A DNA stretch of 64,000 nt, from NCBI GenBank assembly GCA_009869945.1, contig WIXG01000169.1, forward strand, positions 102,664-166,663. Reading direction: 5' to 3'. Under the pieces are notes generated by a model. The model worked only from the letters and a program-made list of their open reading frames with translations, searched no databases and had not been told where the DNA came from. The position numbers were made by a program, and so were the translations under genes. This document shows, in pieces, positions 24,301-64,000 of the stretch; within the stretch, counting starts at the first letter, position 1, and every line of letters begins with the position of its first letter. Source of the stretch: Mesaphorura yosii. Lineage: Eukaryota; Arthropoda; Collembola; Poduromorpha; Tullbergiidae.

Positions 24301-25666
24301 ACGTAGCAATTTTAGTTGGGGAAGTTGCAATGAGAAAGTTCAGGCGGAATTATTTGTTGTCCTTCACGTTTACGTATTTTCTTATTCGACATGACGTAAC
24401 GAAAGATGATTACGCATAGTTCAACAAGTCTCCTACGTTCAATCCCGCAACCACTCAAGGAAATGAGTTTCTATTCCTGGAATACGTCTCTTGGAAGAGA
24501 TTATACTATCCCATGCACATGTCCTATTTCAAGAATAATTTTCTGCGACGAATGGCAGTAATTTGTCGTGCAAATAGAAGCTCCTTAGAGAAATACGGCG
24601 ACATGTGATAGTGAATGTACAAGTCCGAATCCTAACTTATGATTCATTTCACTTTTCAGCTGCATCTCAAGTCGAGTTTGAGCTCACTCCCATTCTCGGA
24701 GTGTGCGTTGGAGTCGTTTGCGGACTTTTGGTTGTCGGACTTGGAGTTGTCTTCGCCTTGAAGTTTCGAACAACTCCTCGGCGAGGCCCTCCACTCAAAG
24801 TGACAAAGACGGAGTATCGCGTTGAGATGCCTGACGCGGAAGAAAAGAACCCTGACATTATTCCTAGCTCAAAAGGTAGGCGAATAGCATGTTGCAAAAG
24901 GACCTCCATATTAAAATTAATTTCTAATTTGTATTTTGCTTAGTAGGTGAAGACTACTACTACAAAGACGGACTGTTCAATGGGCCAAATAGAAATGGAA
25001 ATATTACGGAAAACTTTCGTAATTGCACCTATTATAGTGATAAGGTGAGTTCAGGAGGGTCAGGTTATTGAGTAGGCATGGACATCAGAAACTTGAACGA
25101 TCTGTAAACATGAGATCATTTCTTCTCGAAGCGCAATGAATAGCAGTGCGCAACACGCTAATTAAATATTTGTATGGTCGACGAAACCATTCGGCATGAA
25201 ATATTAGAGTGTACATGTGCCATACGATTCATAATAAAAATGATTTGTTATTACATGCAATTTTCTTTCTATTTGCCTACAGAGTAATACTGAGATTACG
25301 TACGCTGAACTGTGCCTGGATAACAGCATGGGCAACAGTGCTCACACTTCGTTTACTGGTCATAACAGCAGTGGGCTAATGGTCGGAAGTGGAAGTGGTG
25401 GAGGCAGCAGTTGGACGTCCACCATGGATCGGAAGAGAAGACGGAGTCCAACAGAAGATTCCAACGGAGGCATTGCATACAGTGGGGTTATTGGTGGCCC
25501 GAGTAATAACGCCATAATTTATGCCACAATTGATCATAGCAGAAGACTCAATGGTGAACCGCCGTCTCACGCTGCCACGCATCATCAAATTCCACCGCAT
25601 CAACGAGAAATTGTTTCAGTTAGGACGCCACTGCTGGTCAACTCACAGCAAGAGAGTTGTGTGTAA
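3168..25666 (+). CDS. side-like: Sidestep-family Ig/FN3 transmembrane receptor, 3' 15 exons (5' end outside window)
   Basis: Exons read by eye: 3168-3377, 11322-11473, 11673-11817, 16232-16362, 21333-21492, 21818-21894, 21964-22038, 22962-23043, 23146-23220, 23755-23852, 23946-24111, 24189-24221, 24660-24875, 24947-25044, 25283-25666. Phases join without a break into 699 codons plus stop. The product is a type I membrane receptor: rest of Ig2, Ig3, Ig4, Ig5, one FN3, a helix at 24692-24760 and a tail of about 190 residues. Sidestep hallmarks include VTWW, FTCQASNNN, VYFEC, SNQSLVLQ and VPAGKPDP. Family knowledge: fly Sidestep guides motor axons by binding Beat proteins; the partner here is inferred. 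Which paralog (side, side-II to side-VIII) cannot be told. The signal peptide and Ig1 are missing, so the first coding exons lie upstream. Introns are long at the 5' side (up to 7.9 kb) and short at the 3' side; those of 325-923 bases (21493, 22039, 23221, 24222) show nothing else. The donor at 22039 (GTCAAT) is weak. Confidence 0.95.
3378..11321 (+). other. 7.9-kb intron of the side-like gene
   Basis: It is bounded by GTAAGT and TTGCAG. I see no conserved coding block, tRNA or repeat array. The longest ORF inside (7850-8284) has an unremarkable composition and matches nothing I recognise. Confidence 0.7.
11322..11817 (+). CDS. side-like: side-like exons for Ig domain 3 (11322-11473 and 11673-11817)
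   Basis: Two exons split by a 199-base intron. The first begins RPLSVKLLG and carries the first Ig cysteine (IVCQS) and the core tryptophan (ISWF). It ends in phase 0. The second carries the second cysteine (LTCRTS) and the family motif MEDTWK, and ends in phase 1. Order and spacing match Sidestep Ig3. Confidence 0.93.
11818..13097 (+). other. Left part of a 4.4-kb side-like intron
   Basis: Intron sequence before the transposon. The ATG-started ORF at 12191-12607 is Ser/Leu-rich and has no family features; I treat it as chance. Confidence 0.6.
13029..13055. repeat. Imperfect AT-rich palindrome
   Basis: Arms AGTATTATTTA and TAAATAATACT surround a five-base centre. It lies 45 bases outside the pogo-like element, so it is not one of its ends. 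It could form a small hairpin; no function is apparent. Confidence 0.6.
13124..13200 (+). repeat. Left subterminal direct repeat of the pogo-like element
   Basis: This resembles 14091-14167 in direct orientation. Shared blocks include CCGTCG, GCCCGG, GTCAAAAT and ATTGAAACAATA/TTGAAACAATA. A further partial copy starts at 13194 (CACCCCGTCGAAATAGAACG). Repeats just inside the ends are a known feature of some pogo elements and may bind transposase (inference). Confidence 0.75.
13159..14050 (+). pseudogene. Decayed pogo/Tigger-family DDE transposase
   Basis: The frame from 13159 to 13755 holds the DDE_1 core: DQTAVWLD with the first catalytic Asp at 13270-13272, RRLLVWDCF with the second at 13555-13557, and VIPGGC followed by QALNV where families usually have Q-P-L-D-V. 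The third catalytic Asp is therefore Asn (13663-13665). The sequence then moves to another frame near 13752 (APSLEEVGEWIIEAWESL) and to a third frame near 13800 (KESFLTCGITNDLSG, then an acidic C-terminus to 14050). The missing N-terminal CENP-B/HTH region, the D-to-N change and two frameshifts all indicate no activity. It would have cut and pasted DNA at TA sites; now it is only a fossil. Confidence 0.9.
14091..14167 (+). repeat. Right subterminal direct repeat of the pogo-like element
   Basis: Direct-orientation partner of 13124-13200, roughly 70% alike by eye. It sits just inside the right inverted end. Like the left copy it begins CCGTCG. Confidence 0.75.
14192..16231 (+). other. Right part of the 4.4-kb side-like intron
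   Basis: Nothing recognisable between the transposon and the acceptor at 16231. No second copy of the element was noticed. Confidence 0.6.
16232..21492 (+). CDS. side-like: side-like exons for Ig domain 4 (16232-16362 and 21333-21492)
   Basis: The first exon contains VYFECKI and the core tryptophan (VAWLHD) and ends in phase 0. The second, after a 4.97-kb intron, contains SNQSLVLQ and the second cysteine (VYVCKATN). The joined sequence is collinear with Sidestep Ig4. Confidence 0.92.
16363..21332 (+). other. 5.0-kb intron of the side-like gene
   Basis: It is bounded by GTAAGTAC and TTATTTCAG. It contains pyrimidine-rich stretches around 16.9-17.5 kb and short ORFs on both strands, none protein-like. 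No RNA gene was seen. Confidence 0.65.
21818..23220 (+). CDS. side-like: side-like exons for Ig domain 5 (21818-21894, 21964-22038, 22962-23043, 23146-23220)
   Basis: Four small exons. They carry KPVCK, the first Ig cysteine (IECK), the core tryptophan (FKWAFNN), TPMTELDYG and the second cysteine (VLCFGSN), then PCVYQIVPAG at the join to the FN3 exon. The acceptor at 21817 is chosen because the neighbouring AG puts a stop in frame. The donor after 22038 is CAG|GTCAAT, which is weak at +3 and +5. Confidence 0.88.
23755..24111 (+). CDS. side-like: side-like fibronectin type III domain exons (23755-23852 and 23946-24111)
   Basis: The exons read GKPDPPFNCSV, then VEGFDGGLPQ, then FAVTGLRPGQAVRLFVYSSN, the end of an FN3 fold with the typical L-x-P-G turn. 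A single FN3 next to the membrane is the Sidestep architecture. The 93-base intron between them is phase 0. Confidence 0.9.
24189..24221 (+). CDS. side-like: side-like 33-nt microexon in the juxtamembrane stalk
   Basis: This exon lies between TTGTTCAG (ending 24188) and GTGAATTC (starting 24222). It is phase 1 on both sides and adds a short hydrophilic stretch (QTIQEAEKRT) between FN3 and the membrane helix. Because it is symmetric and divisible by three, it could be skipped without a frameshift. Confidence 0.75.
24660..24875 (+). CDS. side-like: side-like exon: membrane helix and start of the cytoplasmic tail
   Basis: A hydrophobic stretch at 24692-24760 (ILGVCVGVVCGLLVVGLGVV and following residues) is followed by a basic stop-transfer segment containing K, R and PRR. 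The exon ends in phase 1 with donor GTAGGCG. Confidence 0.93.
24947..25666 (+). CDS. side-like: side-like cytoplasmic tail exons (24947-25044 and 25283-25666)
   Basis: The tail holds ITYAEL at 25295-25312 and IIYATI at 25514-25531, both matching the ITIM pattern [ILVS]-x-Y-x-x-[ILV]. Between them lies a Gly/Ser-rich linker. The C-terminus is SCV just before TAA (25664-25666), which matches a class I PDZ-binding motif (S/T-x-V). The acceptor of the first exon is a tandem TAGTAG. Confidence 0.9.
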
Positions 25667-38282: not shown

Positions 38283-38320
38283 TATTTATAGAGGCGAATA
38301 AATAATTTCAACTTCCAGTT
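38283..38320 (+). promoter_or_regulatory. Core promoter of the small precursor gene: TATA box and initiator-like site
   Basis: TATTTATAG at 38283-38291 is followed about 30 bases later by CCAGTT (A at 38317), close to the arthropod initiator TCAGTY. The start codon lies at 38376, which would leave a 5' UTR of about 59 bases. The spacing is textbook, but no start-site data are available. Confidence 0.5.
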
Positions 38321-38375: not shown

Positions 38376-38931
38376 ATGAAGTTCCTATTTGTCTTCACAC
38401 TTCTCTACGGAATGACACTTGCAGTAAGAGTACAAAGTAAGTTCAAAATTGCAGTTCTTCACTTCATATTTTGATGGTCTTGAAACTGTATTCATTCATT
38501 CATTCATTCAGAGAGACAATACATTGCCGATTCAGATTCCGATGCTAAAGACCTCTATAAACGTGACTTTGATGATGAGTTTCAACTCCCAGACTTCCAA
38601 AAAGGTAGTGAATGAATATAAGCTAAACTTGCGTTTTGAGACAAACGCAAACATACTTATTACATTTCAAATCAACATCTAGAGGACGATCTGGATGTTA
38701 GAGCGTACGCCAAAGATCTGGAAAAACGACAATACAATTACCACTACAAAGATGCGAAGGACGTCGAAAAACGTGATTATGGTGAGGCCTTTCTGAACAA
38801 CGTCACATTAGCCAATAAATTGCAGTAGCATTATTGCTGTTGTTGCTGAGCTGTTTCTTACCCAACTTGCAGATGATGTGTACGCAAGAGACAATTCCGA
38901 CAATTACGATGCAGATGCAATTCGAAAATAA
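38376..38931 (+). CDS. Small secreted precursor with four Lys-Arg sites (candidate neuropeptide-like prohormone)
   Basis: Four tiny exons join in frame: 38376-38436, 38512-38604, 38683-38781, 38873-38931, with introns of 75, 78 and 91 bases, all phase 1 and GT-AG. The product has 103 residues. Residues 1-16 (MKFLFVFTLLYGMTLA) form a clear signal peptide. KR pairs lie at 21-22, 37-38, 66-67 and 81-82. Cleavage would release QYIADSDSDAKDLY, a 27-residue peptide starting DFDDEF, QYNYHYKDAKDVE, and a C-terminal piece starting DYDDVY. The unit AKD[LV][YE]KR[DQ][FY] occurs three times, so the precursor grew by internal duplication. There are no cysteines and no Gly before the KR sites, so no amidated ends; the two N-terminal Gln could form pyroglutamate. 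I do not recognise the family; D[FY]DD resembles orcokinin NFDEID only weakly. A secreted acidic structural peptide is the alternative. Confidence 0.8.
38490..38509 (+). repeat. ATTC x5 microsatellite at a splice acceptor
   Basis: Five perfect ATTC units run directly into the AG at 38510-38511 of the first intron of the small precursor gene. They replace the usual pyrimidine tract, so changes in length would alter this acceptor. Confidence 0.9.
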
Positions 38932-38959: not shown

Positions 38960-39000
38960 AATAAACACATCAGTTGAATAGCTCCACTTTGCTCAATAAA
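38960..39000 (+). terminator. Poly(A) signals of the small precursor gene
   Basis: Two AATAAA hexamers, at 38960-38965 and 38995-39000, lie 29 and 64 bases after the stop codon. They close a compact transcription unit of about 0.7 kb. Confidence 0.65.
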
Positions 39001-46262: not shown

Positions 46263-49200
46263 CTATGGAACAAACACACGGTGTTGACATTTCGGCAATT
46301 CATATAAAGTGCATTGGACTCTGGACTGTCTGCGAAAAGAAGGGATTGACGGGAATTGATTTCCTTACCTGGGAGCAATTTGGTAACCCAAGCGTGCTCT
46401 GAGAATTCGGTGATGTTGAGTTCCCCAAACTGCTAATGACAGACCCAGAACTTCCACCAGAAGGAGTACTTCCGTCTCCATTTGAACTTCCGCAGGGTTT
46501 GCCGTCTTTCACAAGAACAGGAACCGCAACGCGCCGAGGCGAACTCTGAAATGTTGATCGATTCTTGTGCTTAATTGAATTCCCATTGAATCAGTAGAAT
46601 GAATATTTAGGATGTGATACTGGTAAAACCTACCTGATTGCTGCTCTGATCTGCCATGGCCTTTTCCTTGGCTTGCCGTTTGCATTTGTAGCGATGGTTT
46701 TGGAACCATATTTTAACCTGAATGAACATAGATTCAGAAGTGGGGTTAACGAGTCGGTTCAGAAACGTGAGAACAGGCAATTGACGAATAACGAAACACG
46801 AGCCTCTTTTATCGGAGAAATATGTTACTCGCTCACCTGTGTTGGGGTCAGATGAATATGATTTGCAAGGTGTTCCCTTTCTGGGGCGGATAGGTATTTT
46901 TGTAATTTGAATCGCTTCTCGAGTTCGTAGACCTAAAGTCAAAGAAGCACAAGTATGAGGGAACTTGATACTCATATTTTGATTCTGTCAAAATTCTTTT
47001 GTCAAGAAACCCACAACAAAGACAGAAAATCATTGAAACGACTGTAAAACGACATGTAAACTGTGCCGAAACAGTACAAGTCTGAACAAAGTCTTAATGT
47101 ATGGATTTCAGGTCTCACGAGACAGGTAGCAATTTAATGTTATCTTTGCACTGAAATCTTTGAATGATTTGATTGATCTGGCACAAGTTCAACTGAACAC
47201 CAACTTGTATTGCTGTTCCAACTTTGTAGTTCTGGAACGGCGTCCGTTCGTTTTGCTTTATTGCGGGAAACGAATTTAGCCAACTGGACAACCAAGTTTA
47301 AAGTCACAACTATTGGAAAGGTTTAACTCCAAACCCCGGACCTAAAGTCAAACCGAATGTGTAATATTGGCTCTTCCAATTTTAGCGAGAATCAGGAAAC
47401 CATTTTAGAGTTGAATCCCCAGACGCCTTCTGATTCATCGACTCTCTACTCGACCGACTACCCACCATCGTTGTCTTTCCCTTGCCTTAATGCAGTTGCA
47501 GTGCAGTTTTAAGCAATTCAAACAAAGAATTGTGCCTACTCCGCTTTTCAGTTTCAGCTCTTGCTCTTTGACGAGTAACGTAAATTTGTTGACACAAAAG
47601 ATTAGATTGAATCTAACGTTGAGTCGCTTTTTTGTCTTACGAGTCCCCAATTTCATTTCCAGCGCTGTTGCACTGCAACTACAGTTTGACTTTCTACTTT
47701 GAACTTTGCAACGTGGCACTCTTTCAATTGATTACTTAGCGGATAAAATAAATTCATTACGCCAAGATGCGAGCGATAAGCGTTCAAATTCGTCGAATTG
47801 ACAAATAAATTAAGACCTCTGCGTAACACGCTTCTCATATTTTGTACCTGGGCTTGCGTGAAAAGCACGCGTCGCTTTCTTCTTTGTGACAGCGGGAACT
47901 GCATTACTGGCTTCACGTCGCCTCCCATGTTACATCCACTCAGGCCAGACATGTTGGAAACATTCATATTCGAAGATCCCATCAGCCTAGTTACTGTAAT
48001 GCAAAAAAGGTAGAATTCATTATTGATAAAACGTGCACTTTTATGCGCACAATCGATGATCGGTGCCACAATTTAGATCTTCCAATCGATGCTGGTTAAT
48101 AAAGTCAGAAGCACGTACGTTTTGTTTTGTTTGTGATTTTTTGAATGCACTTAAACACAGATGGTATTTTGTGTTTGGTTTTCAAATCAAATCTGTTTAC
48201 TAACTCACGCTACTCCAAACACAGAGGATCCAGTCATGTTCACGGAATTGGGTATCGCATTACCCCAAGCACTGGCATTTTCGGTATTGAAAATTGTAAT
48301 AATCAGCGTTTTATCGACTTACTCGCAAATCGAGGATCCGTAGCTGATGCTCCGTACCAACCAGCAGCCGCTGCGGAGGCAGAACTCCGGACATCCCCGT
48401 AATGAGTTGTCATTCCATGTAGATCGGCGGTTCCATTGCAATACTGTGCTTGGAAAGCGGCCGCAGCAGCTCCCGGGTGGGAAAGTTGAGACATATGCAT
48501 GTGAGTGTATGGTGATCCAGCTGAGACGTTCATTGCTGAATTCAAGTTGTTCGCTGTAGTTGGAGAGAATTGTGAATTCTTGGAATTATTTGTACTGCTA
48601 ACGCTGCTGTTGTTATTGTTATTATTACTTAAGTAAGACGCTAACGAAGTGGCAGTTGACGTGGCTGAATTCATATGAGGGGCAACTTCCAGCGCTTTGA
48701 GACGATAAGATTCTTCCAAAGGACTCAGAATATCAGTGACAGAAAATGGAGTTGTGTGTTTGGGGCTCAAAGACATGGCAAGCTCACCGGACAGTTCGGT
48801 GAGCGAATTGGTTGGGAATTCAGTTCCAATGATGAGACTCCTCGACAGATTCTGAATGCCTTGATAAGATGAGGGTGAAAACTCTTTGTGACCTTTATAG
48901 CTGTGGTATTTCTCGGCCGAGCGTGGGGAAGGAGAGCCAGCTTCGAATTTACATACATTTATGCCACTACTTTTGATTTTTTTAGTAATCTCAGGTTCTA
49001 ACTGCTTGTCTTCATCTATTTCGTTCTTAAAATCAAGTCCGCTCTGAAGATTCTCATATTTAATGCATGATGAACCTGATGTGGAGGACAGTGGTGGCGA
49101 TGAAGTATTGGAAAGGGAGTGAGAGAAGGGCGAGAGCGGAAATTCTGCTTGGACGTCGGCACCGATCGTTTCCGCGATTGTGGAACTGCTTGTGACCTGC

Positions 49201-49461
49201 GCTTCCGTCCACTGTTGACGCTGCTGATTGGGCCAGTAGGCGGATGGCGAAGGCGAAGAATCGTTGTAATCGCCTTCCGGGTCCACTTTGGCTGTGTGAA
49301 CTGGTCAGTGGCACAGTTATAAAATCACACCACCCTCTTCATTAGCCGCGTATAAACACAAAACTCACGAACTTTCGTTAACAGGACTCTTGAACTTGGC
49401 ACGTCGCCGTTCGTATTTAGTTCAAGTATCGATAAAACCAATCCAACTCACAGTTGACCAT
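46005..49461 (-). CDS. scro: scarecrow / NKX2-1 (NK2.1) homeobox transcription factor
   Basis: Seven coding exons on the minus strand: 49461-49452, 49291-48323, 47993-47848, 46932-46837, 46717-46634, 46545-46369, 46262-46005. The phases join into 579 codons plus stop. A nuclear DNA-binding regulator; in flies scarecrow acts in brain and pharynx, and vertebrate NKX2-1 in thyroid, lung and forebrain (family knowledge). Diagnostic parts in order: TN repressor motif [20 protein letters not shown] (residue 177 on), GWYGAS..DPRFAITRLMG, homeodomain at 364-423 with Tyr54 (WFQNHRYK), NK2-specific domain [17 protein letters not shown] (437-453), His/Gln-rich tract and C-terminus [11 protein letters not shown] like the fly end. 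Low-complexity Asn, Ser and Ala runs sit between motifs. The start in a 10-base exon is the least certain part. Confidence 0.96.
46369..46545 (-). CDS. scro: scro exon with the NK2-specific domain
   Basis: The exon starts [18 protein letters not shown], the NK2-specific domain with its hydrophobic Val/Leu core. It is then Gly/Ser-rich and ends NCSQ at donor GTAAGG. It has 59 codons, phase 0 on both sides. Confidence 0.94.
46634..47993 (-). CDS. scro: scro homeodomain exons (47993-47848, 46932-46837, 46717-46634)
   Basis: The first exon runs from ITRLMG to homeodomain position 12 (VLFTQAQ). The second covers positions 13-44 (VYELEKRF to LTPTQ). The third covers 45-60 and the tail ([20 protein letters not shown]). 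The introns are 915 and 119 bases, all phase 0. Arg5, Trp48, Phe49, Asn51 and the NK2-class Tyr54 are present. Against the usual NK2.1 homeodomain, positions 18 (Lys), 22 (Leu), 36 (Asn) and 37 (His) differ. Confidence 0.96.
48323..49291 (-). CDS. scro: scro large exon: Ser-rich N-terminus, TN motif and pre-homeodomain region
   Basis: A 969-base exon. The TN motif starts at Met 48776-48774. About 170 residues open upstream of it are Ser/Pro-rich and acidic. Downstream come Asn6 and Ala5 runs and DPRFA at the donor A|GTAAGTC (48322). Confidence 0.95.
49452..49461 (-). CDS. scro: scro candidate first coding exon (10 nt, MVN plus one base)
   Basis: On the minus strand ATGGTCAACT is followed directly by the donor GTGAGTTGG. 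Joined to the acceptor before 49291 it gives Met-Val-Asn-Ser-Lys-Val-Asp in the long open frame. No ATG precedes the TN-motif Met within the next exon itself, so either this start or the internal Met at 48776-48774 is used. Confidence 0.5.
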
Positions 49462-55857: not shown

Positions 55858-55941
55858 GTGGAAAATTCATTCAAGACTAAAGCGATCAAGTGCGCCATAT
55901 CCGCTCCGAGCCGGCAATCGGCATTTTGGCATCTTGGAACC

Positions 55942-56257
55942 ATGGCTTCGAGAAACGTTCACCACTGGCATTGGCCGCCAGGTTCAAAATCTTCCCGACT
56001 AGTCGTCCTAGGACTGAGCTGTCTCATATTCCTAATTGGATCCGCGTCAGCGTCGGACACGTGCATCTGCAAAGTTGGCGTGCCATGTGAGAAGAATGCG
56101 ACCGCATTTGGCTGTCCGAGTGGACGTGTGATATCAAGAAGAGACTGCACTTGCTGCTTCGTTTGTGCCAAGCAATTAACTGAAAGTTGTAATGATAGTG
56201 AATTTCCATGTGACACTGCCTTTGGTCTAATTTGCGGAGAAGACTCGCGCTGCAAAG
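55942..56257 (+). CDS. Secreted cysteine-rich protein, IGFBP N-terminal-like domain, first coding exon
   Basis: ATG at 55942 is the first ATG in this frame. Residues 19-37 (RLVVLGLSCLIFLIGSASA) form a signal sequence with likely cleavage after Ala37. The secreted part has 14 cysteines in about 67 residues, including CICKVGVPC, DCTCCFVCAKQ and CDTAFGLIC. The CxCCxxCA core resembles the GCGCCxxCA signature of insulin-like growth factor binding (IGFBP-N) and CRIM/HTRA-type domains. The exon ends in phase 1 at donor GTAAAC (56258), so the protein continues; I found no convincing next exon in the window. It may bind a growth factor outside the cell, but that is inferred from the fold only. A single-domain IGFBP-like protein or a larger CRIM-like one are both possible. 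Confidence 0.75.
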
Positions 56258-59200
56258 GTAAACAGGATTTTTATGTTTCGCTTTTGTTCATTTTGCGTTC
56301 TTATCATCACTGTGTGTTAAACGTAAAATGCTGAGAATTTCCTTGTTGATCATCTAAAGATCGCAATCTTATCACACGATATTCGAAAGTGGTCGCCGCT
56401 CTATAAATATGCGTGTACACCGCGGCGCGGCACAATTAAAGCGTAGAGATAATTGGCCATATACAGTTATCCGTGTAATCGAGTATGAAGTATCGATAGC
56501 CGCTTTCAAGCACAACGATAATAATTGTGGGAAATCAGAGCAGAAATGCAAGGGTGAGAAAAGTGAATTTTCAATGCCAACTTTAGCAAAAACGTTAACT
56601 CTCGGAAAATCGTGACCTCCTTGTCCACGACGGACACGAGTATAACCGCCTCGTAGCCAACCAATTTGATTCCGCTTCTATTGCAACTGCAAACGAATGA
56701 GGCGCGTGGAGACCGCTAGTTTGATTAATGCCGAGTTTCCATTTCCATTTTGTTTGATCGTTCTGTGACTTTTAACGATCAAGTTCGCTTGAGTGCGCCA
56801 AACAAACGAAAGTCGAAGGTGCTTTATCCGGTTTTCAGGTGCATTTGTTTTCGATCTGCACTGCTAAACAGTGAAGTGCAATAGAGTCGTGGGAAGAATA
56901 AATCCGGGAGTAATTGGCTCATCTATCTTATACGTCGAGATTCTTTCTCTTCTCGTACTCAAGCTCAGAAATCTCGAGTTCCTGAATTAATGTTTTTAAA
57001 CTCGAGTTTGTTTACTCGAATGGTGAAGACGAATGCTCCGTCACGACTGTCACTGCGATTAAATCAATCTTGCCGGGATTTCGCCTCGCAATCAGCCAGG
57101 CAGTGACAAGAGACAAACGCATGATTCTGAAAGCAAAAGTTACGGAAGAAAATACGGCATATAAAAATTTTTGCAGCACAAAATCACAAATCACACAACC
57201 AAAGCAAAGTAGACAATAAATTTAAACTGGCCGTGAACATGAACCGTAGGAAATGTCACAAAGTGCACTCGTAGTTGGCAATGAGCGCGTTTATGATTTA
57301 TCTTTCTGATATTTGGCAACTTGACTCGCCTGAAGTCTTCTATATTCCTATGCTAAATGCGCTTTCAGTAGCTTCCATCATGATTTCATGATCACACTCA
57401 CAAAGCACCAATTTAGAACTTTGTGAAGGTATAAGCACATTTGTGGCTCAAACTTTAAAAAATCGAAACGGGCTTTGAAATGGGTTATAACCCTAACAGG
57501 CTTCATCGTCAAATGTTTACCGAGGCCAAAATTTCATTCCATCAAATCTGCGGCCATTCACCGATGATTTTAACAGCATAATTATGCCAATTGTTACCCA
57601 ACAATTTATTGACATGGCACGTCATTCATTTTACGCTTGATTGAGTCATTCATGAAACGGTTGGTATACGGATGTTTAAAGAAATTTCATGTGCTTACGT
57701 TACGAACTGCATGCCGCATGCAAATTAATGAATGACTCGTACCTCGCATTTAATTTCGTCTTACTCATTGTTTTGTCTGTTAACGACATTGTTGCGTTTG
57801 CTAATTTTGCGTTTTATCGCATCGCTTTGTGGGTTTTGTGACTAATAATAAGCCCGCGCAAGATACGACCGGCTCACGAAGTGCCGCGTGCGTATCCTTA
57901 TTTGCATTGCCACTCTTCTTGATTCTTGATCTCGCTCGTGCATTGTAGAGCTTTCTTAAGTTTACATTGTTTTGTTCCATGTTGTGCCGCTGTGCGCTTG
58001 CTGTTCTTTCATCTGTTGCAGCCCGATATGCTAATGCGAAGCATTACCTTTGTGTCGTGCTCTATTTTGATAGTGTACATTTACTATTTGGGTTAAAGCT
58101 CTGTAATTTCCCATTCACTTTCAAACTAAATCCTCGTCGCTACAAACGGCAAGCTACAAAGTGAAGCGGACTTTCATTGGGTCAGGATTAATGATTACCT
58201 GGAATAGGATATCCACGCGTTCAACTGCAACTAAAGCCATAATTCATATTTGAATTCTTTCGCATAATATTTACAGTTTACAGTTATGACGTTATGCAAA
58301 TTTTAATCCCTTATTAATTTAGATTCTCAAAAGCTTATTAAGATTTAGGAGCTGCATAGAGCTTTTTCTGTTCGCGCTTTGTCATTCTCGAATCACGTTC
58401 TGATTAATGAAAGTAGAAGTCATGTGAATGCGGCTCGATTTGATTTTTGATCCTGAGCAATTGCATCACCCTTCTTTAATGAACCCATACGTTGACGAAA
58501 TTGGCAGTTGGTGACAAATATTTGTGTATTGGACTGGATATTAATGAGTGATTAAATATTCTATATATGGACACGTCAAGCGAGTGCGGAAGCGAGTCGA
58601 TACGAGCAAGGCGATAAAATTGTAATTAACCATTGTTTTTGTGTCACCAATACCCATTTGTCGTGTCATCGTGAGATTAGTTGCAAAATGTCCAATATGC
58701 AAATACGCCAACATACCTGCTTGGATGTAATTTGCATAGGGCACAAACATACGACCGTGCAAAGCGTGAAAATGATCCGTGTACTTCGTATCGAATGTGC
58801 ATGGGAATCTCTTCGCGAGTGCTCTCGGCGATTGTCATCATCATCGTCTGGCATCAATGCTAATTAAAATACTGGTAATGCAAAATAATTATTACAATTT
58901 CTCGTCCGGCGCAACTTGTCGTCTCGTCAAGGTATTAAATGTTATCACATTGCACCACAATACAAGCTGCATTTCGCAGTGCAATGGAAGCAATGGCCCA
59001 ATGGTCAACTTGCACGATGAAGACAAGTTGCCAATTGGAAGTAAGAAGCATGAACCCCAAGAAGTTGTCTTAGCTCATGTTTGTTGCCTGCAAATTCAAA
59101 AATGTAAAATGGTAAAAATCTAAACACCTGTCTGCGAGAGGATGTTGTTTGCTTTCTTGTTCCCACCTTGGTGCCTCGTTCAGAGATTTTTGGCCCGGTC

Positions 59201-63651: not shown

Positions 63652-64000
63652 TTACTGAAATTGGTTGCCGGTCGCTTTCTCAATGTAGATGGCTTGATCA
63701 TTATTTGGTCTGTACCACCAACCATAATGTCCCTCTCCGGGAAGATCGCCATCACCCTTCCACGGCTCATCAAAGGCCTCAAACATTTGGACCTTAACGC
63801 GGTTACTATTGCTCCATGTCTTCATCGCGTTCCAATACGCAACAAGATTGCTTACAGTATTTGCGCTGGCATCATTGTTAAAGCTCTTGCCTTGGCTTGG
63901 CCATCCGGTTTCACCGATAATAACCTCCAAGGACGGATTGATTCTCCACATGCCGTCCCGGGCGCTGAAGTATTGATCGCTCACGGACTGCACGGCGGTG
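63652..64000 (-). CDS. GH17 endo-beta-1,3-glucanase, C-terminal part (5' end beyond window)
   Basis: An open frame runs from the window edge to TAA at 63654-63652, about 115 residues. IIGETGWPSQG carries the GH17 nucleophile Glu (63912-63910). FEAFDEPWK (63783-63757) is a second family block, and the end YGWWYRPN closes the barrel. The enzyme would hydrolyse beta-1,3-glucan of fungal or algal walls. The acid/base Glu and any signal peptide lie outside the window. GH17 is typical of plants, fungi and bacteria and rare in animals. FEAFDEPWK is closer to the microbial (BGL2-type) form than the plant one (inference). No intron is visible in this part. Acquisition by horizontal transfer is the leading explanation; assembly contamination must be excluded. 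Confidence 0.93.
   Translation of the reverse strand, partial: TAVQSVSDQYFSARDGMWRINPSLEVIIGETGWPSQGKSFNNDASANTVSNLVAYWNAMKTWSNSNRVKVQMFEAFDEPWKGDGDLPGEGHYGWWYRPNNDQAIYIEKATGNQFQ

Follow-up and report, generated by a model that had tools for sequence, protein, structure and literature searches.

The forward strand of the window (the whole stretch of DNA analysed, 64,000 nucleotides) carries at 38376-38931 a four-exon gene model with a spliced product of 103 residues. Exon 1 (38376..38436) holds the ATG, the hydrophobic leader MKFLFVFTLLYGMTLA, the residues VRVQ and the first base of the Lys codon of the first Lys-Arg (KR) pair. Exon 2 (38512..38604) encodes that KR, QYIADSDSDAKDLY, a second KR and DFDDEFQLPDFQK; exon 3 (38683..38781) encodes EDDLDVRAYAKDLE, KR, QYNYHYKDAKDVE, KR and DY; and exon 4 (38873..38931) encodes DDVYARDNSDNYDADAIRK before the stop codon. 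The order of the complete product is thus MKFLFVFTLLYGMTLA-VRVQ-KR-QYIADSDSDAKDLY-KR-DFDDEFQLPDFQKEDDLDVRAYAKDLE-KR-QYNYHYKDAKDVE-KR-DYDDVYARDNSDNYDADAIRK. All three introns are GT-AG introns, namely intron 1 (38437..38511, 75 bases, GTAAGT...TTCATTCAG), intron 2 (38605..38682, 78 bases, GTAGTG...ACATCTAG) and intron 3 (38782..38872, 91 bases, GTGAGG...CTTGCAG), and the exon lengths of 61, 93 and 99 bases place every one of them in phase 1. The second donor (AAG followed by GTAGTG) is the weaker one and deviates from the GTAAGT form of donor 1. Such intron sizes are ordinary for this genome: where adjacent matches to CCT chaperonins are separated by 24 gaps, 14 of these measure 44-100 bases. 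The sizes were taken from the match coordinates (19 of the 24 gaps were read) and, being alignment gaps, only approximate introns. On the same strand, a TATA-like box (TATTTATA, 38283..38290) is followed 32 bases later by an initiator-like CCAGTTT at 38315, and two AATAAA poly(A)-signal hexamers lie downstream at 38960 and 38995 (38960..39000). Re-reading 38376-38931 reproduced the coordinates, the exons, the short phase-1 introns and the translation of the original prediction, and the promoter-like pair and the poly(A) signals that it had placed around the gene are present as resemblances in sequence.

Several other features were seen in the window. Homeobox pieces lie on the reverse strand at 46610-49304, including an open reading frame (ORF) with a homeodomain end (PF00046, 20.9 bits, below the cut-off of 22.9); we take this gene to be of the NK2 type, judged by eye, and the two long ORFs adjoining the pieces have no Pfam match. 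A possible immunoglobulin-domain gene extends over 2972-25663 on the forward strand, where the ORF at 2972-3382 matches immunoglobulin families and a membrane-spanning-like stretch at 24578-24940 belongs, at a guess, to the same gene. The forward-strand ORF at 55858-56331 combines a signal-like start with an IGFBP-like domain (25.5 bits, below the cut-off of 28). At 63655-63999 on the reverse strand there is a glycosyl hydrolase family 17 exon (L062, 48 bits), and three weaker matches to this family (L063, L064 and L065; 28-30 bits, cut-off 28.2) lie on two other contigs. The family is mainly plant and fungal, and its occurrence in an animal genome possibly reflects transfer or contamination. 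The window yielded no hits to Rfam families or tRNAs, and COX1 was not found in the assembly. A globin search of the genome returned three matches and no large cluster; two of them (L016 and L017, contig C3, 691.1-693.8 kb) are similar and adjacent, and one starts with MGDRIL and has no obvious signal peptide.

The product of the 38376-38931 gene has the architecture of a peptide precursor, as the gene model, leader, KR sites and repeat all support. First, the predicted signal peptide is borne out by hydropathy and by the residues at its end: residues 3-16 have a mean Kyte-Doolittle value of 2.03, no 14-residue window starting at residue 18 or later exceeds -0.90, and the presumed cut after TLA is permissible, position -1 being Ala and position -3 Thr. 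Second, the re-read translation contains the four KR sites as described, with Q, D, Q and D in turn after KR and then Y, F, Y and Y. The sole further adjacent basic pair is the terminal RK. Third, the unit AKD[LV][YE]KR[DQ][FY] does occur three times (AKDLYKRDF, AKDLEKRQY and AKDVEKRDY), its AKDLYKR, AKDLEKR and AKDVEKR copies lying on the forward strand at 38544..38564, 38709..38729 and 38754..38774, respectively. The KR-bounded products are 13-27 residues long, and two of the predicted peptides start with Gln, so that they would be able to form pyroglutamate. The residues before the four KR sites are Q, Y, E and E; Gly, the mark of amidated neuropeptides such as AKH, RYamide and FMRFamide, precedes none of them, so the predicted peptides would have free C-termini, in agreement with the non-amidated products first proposed. 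The accompanying description of the peptides as acidic fits three of the four products (computed pI 4.05) and applies only mildly to QYNYHYKDAKDVE (5.5). Asp makes up 21 of the 87 post-leader residues, the pI is 4.6, and Cys is absent.

The repeat was compared with chance in the searchable genome of the source animal (93.0 Mb, 1127 contigs). Written as DNA, with NTN codons at the first x and NAN codons at the second, the motif KD-x-x-KR-[QHDE]-[FY] matched three times in the 93 Mb, each time in this gene, while its backwards control matched 0 times forward and once in reverse. The AKD-x-x-KR pattern, its x positions likewise restricted to NTN and NAN codons, gave 10 matches, three of them in this gene, and its backwards control gave 4 and 7; this total is not above the control, so the special point is the presence of three copies together in the frame of one gene. 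The frames of the seven other matches were judged non-coding by eye. When the 87 post-leader residues were shuffled, three AKDxxKR units appeared in 0 of 20000 shuffles and at least four KR in 101 of 20000. The repeat finder reported no direct DNA repeats of at least 14 bases, so the copies did not arise as a recent duplication of DNA. When their 21 bases are aligned, the copies differ in 8 columns; third codon positions account for 6 of the 8 (6 of the 7 third positions; hypergeometric p 0.0032). Third-position drift around a held core is the trace expected of selection acting on the protein. A longer comparison of the two modules, over 14 codons, showed 10 differences with 5 at third positions and was not significant (p 0.18), so the constraint is clear for the core only.

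Codon usage was scored with frequencies from 2905 codons in 21 of 34 CCT-chaperonin matches (nine were dropped for internal stops and four had no locus). For the null, four pieces without stops and comparable in length were taken from the neighbouring intergenic DNA and chained; the first piece began at an ATG and ended at a GT, the second and third ran from AG to GT, and the last started after an AG. Among 10000 chains drawn, 8144 were open, and 5 of these 8144 reached the observed score. Taken by itself, the choice among synonymous codons gave a weak signal, with p ~0.07 when codons were resampled and 0.24 when random segments served for comparison. The observation of the gene is confirmed as more than chance, and the open spliced frame, the leader, the four Lys-Arg sites and the three core-constrained copies point to a real protein-coding gene.

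Searches against known families returned no relative of the product. No Pfam-A family matched at E up to 1, and PDB gave nothing significant (six sequences at E up to 1, the best being an endo-beta-galactosidase at 0.061 and the others albumins). Eleven peptide strings were absent from the full text of 5.39 million open-licence papers, six of them searched alone and five only jointly with 'neuropeptide' or with one another. To our knowledge, none of 39 published arthropod neuropeptide and hormone genes has the cores of this gene. The claim that no family has these cores accordingly holds against Pfam, PDB, the open full-text strings and, as far as its cores are known to us, the 39-gene list. 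NPLP1 precursors are multi-peptide and dibasic-cut, like the predicted product of this gene, and we know of no NPLP1 core that is seen in it. NPLP1 is named among arthropod precursors in the paper from which the list of 39 genes was taken (PMC4770511).

Within the genome, a whole-protein search at E up to 10 returned four matches, all of them the gene's own exons; the search ran exon by exon on short exons and was complemented by exact patterns, and its sensitivity is bounded accordingly. The pattern KRD[FY]D[DE] had six genome matches, one here and five elsewhere (backwards control, 1 and 3). One of the five falls in the same window at ~43576, and none of them reads as a related secreted precursor. 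The gene is apparently single-copy in its own genome.

The same genome contains other genes linked to peptide hormones. The pattern [ND][LF]DEIDR matches four times, never in this gene, with three matches together between KR sites and one lone. The three mark an orcokinin exon (L052, contig C101, ~183.7 kb, minus strand) in which NFDEIDR stands three times within KR-bounded peptides, and this separate orcokinin gene means that the 38376-38931 gene is not the orcokinin orthologue. The peptides between the KR sites of that exon read NFDEIDRSGFGSFV, NFDEIDRVGLGFN and NFDEIDRTGFGSFV, none of which was found as a string in open-licence full text. Arthropod orcokinin precursors resemble the predicted product of our gene in having several non-amidated peptides between KR sites and [ND][FY]D[DE] after KR, whereas the EIDR core is missing from our gene and the genome has its own orcokinin exon elsewhere. 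On contig C59 at ~20.1 kb lies an AKH/RPCH-type precursor (L019) with QVNFSPSWGKR. According to PMC5537346, its QVNFSPSW differs by one residue from Daphnia pulex RPCH (pQVNFSTSWamide) and has the same sequence as the AKH listed for the dragonfly Anax imperator (pQVNFSPSWamide). Neither this sequence nor the small globin set establishes a water flea, which short introns and G+C had suggested at first, and the animal is taken to be an arthropod, probably a pancrustacean. The AKH/RPCH precursor shares with the predicted product of the 38376-38931 gene an N-terminal Gln able to form pyroglutamate and KR cleavage; unlike that product, which has no Gly before KR, it yields one peptide directly after the leader and has Gly before KR. 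Together with 7B2 (PF05281, 168 bits), the orcokinin exon and the AKH/RPCH precursor make it very probable that this animal processes peptide hormones at dibasic sites.

We give an even chance to the reading that the gene encodes a small secreted signalling prohormone, the source of orphan, non-amidated acidic peptides of which two could carry pyroglutamate. In its favour stand the gene model, the confinement of the KD-x-x-KR-[QHDE]-[FY] motif to this gene, the third-position drift, the codon score, the rarity of four KR among the shuffles, the ordinary intron sizes, and the presence in the genome of 7B2 and of the KR-punctuated orcokinin exon. The leader would be removed after Ala16, a furin/PC2-type convertase would cut after each KR, and a carboxypeptidase would then trim the KR residues, so that four peptides would come out: QYIADSDSDAKDLY, a 27-residue peptide DFDDEF...AYAKDLE, the peptide QYNYHYKDAKDVE and the C-terminal remainder, which starts with DYDD. 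Where Gln leads a peptide, as in two of the four, it may be cyclised by glutaminyl cyclase to give pGlu-YIADSDSDAKDLY and pGlu-YNYHYKDAKDVE. Recognition might rest on the AKD[LV][YE]-OH repeated at the C-termini or on the paired Q-Y and D-[FY]-D-D starts, and Tyr residues amid acidic ones could be sulfated. A role in neuro- or gut-endocrine signalling would be likely. KR cleavage is here a prediction, and such predictions are not highly accurate, as stated in PMC6756747. Several observations count against a signalling prohormone. There is no amidation site, and the weak synonymous choice, the weak second donor and the non-significant 14-codon test weigh in the same direction. No core of the gene matches a receptor ligand known to us, and AKDxxKR, the most conserved element, could be convertase-site context or a spacer and not the bioactive core.

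The main alternative, which we regard as rather unlikely, is an Asp-rich secreted protein without a signalling role (of the cuticle, the eggshell or a gland, or of calcium-binding use in mineral) in which the KR pairs serve furin trimming or are incidental. Its Asp content, low pI, absence of cysteine and absence of an amidation signal all suit such a protein, and short repeated motifs are common in proteins of this type. Crustaceans have small secreted Asp-rich calcium-binding proteins, for example orchestin, which are alike in size, secretion and composition but differ, by description, from this gene with its regular KR-[QD]-[FY] punctuation. What speaks against this alternative is that just 87 residues hold four KR sites, each followed by [QD][YF], with the terminal RK as the only other adjacent basic pair; the lack of a direct DNA repeat of at least 14 bases and of a Pfam match also stands against it.

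It is improbable that the gene is instead a secreted precursor of antimicrobial, reproductive or pheromone-type peptides cleaved at KR outside the nervous system; the processing logic would be identical and the sequence specifies no tissue, although acidic cysteine-free peptides differ from most antimicrobial peptides. That the locus is non-functional, its short pieces forming an open chain through decay or by coincidence, seems quite improbable to us: the shortness of the exons, the one weak donor and the weak synonymous-choice signal would fit it, whereas the exclusive three-fold motif, the third-position drift, the codon score, the in-phase introns of ordinary size and the flanking elements that resemble a promoter and poly(A) signals all oppose it. 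Finally, a very diverged orcokinin-type paralogue is highly improbable. In its favour, KR-[DN][FY]D[DE] resembles the orcokinin start NFDEIDR (compare KRDFDDEF and KRDYDDVY with KRNFDEID), and Gly is likewise missing before KR in the KR-bounded orcokinins of this genome; a decapod orcokinin spacer ending in YIANLYKR may also resemble the QYIA...DLYKR of this gene. Against it, the EIDR core is absent, the likeness covers about four residues, and the three NFDEIDR copies of the genome's orcokinin exon lie elsewhere.

Under the prohormone reading, the candidate would probably represent a new family within a known kind, the dibasic-cleaved peptide precursors. Somewhat short of even is the chance that with this gene an arthropod peptide-hormone family is described for the first time, one that would be defined by a free C-terminal AKD[LV][YE] and by N-termini alternating between pyroglutamyl-Tyr and Asp-aromatic, would act through an orphan receptor, and may be confined to one lineage. 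Small multi-exon peptide genes of this sort easily escape automatic annotation and homology searches. If the peptides are released, the arthropod list would gain an orphan ligand of unusual chemistry, acidic and with a free C-terminus; orphan-receptor screens would gain a concrete query, and the gene would offer a case for how new peptide hormones arise within one lineage.
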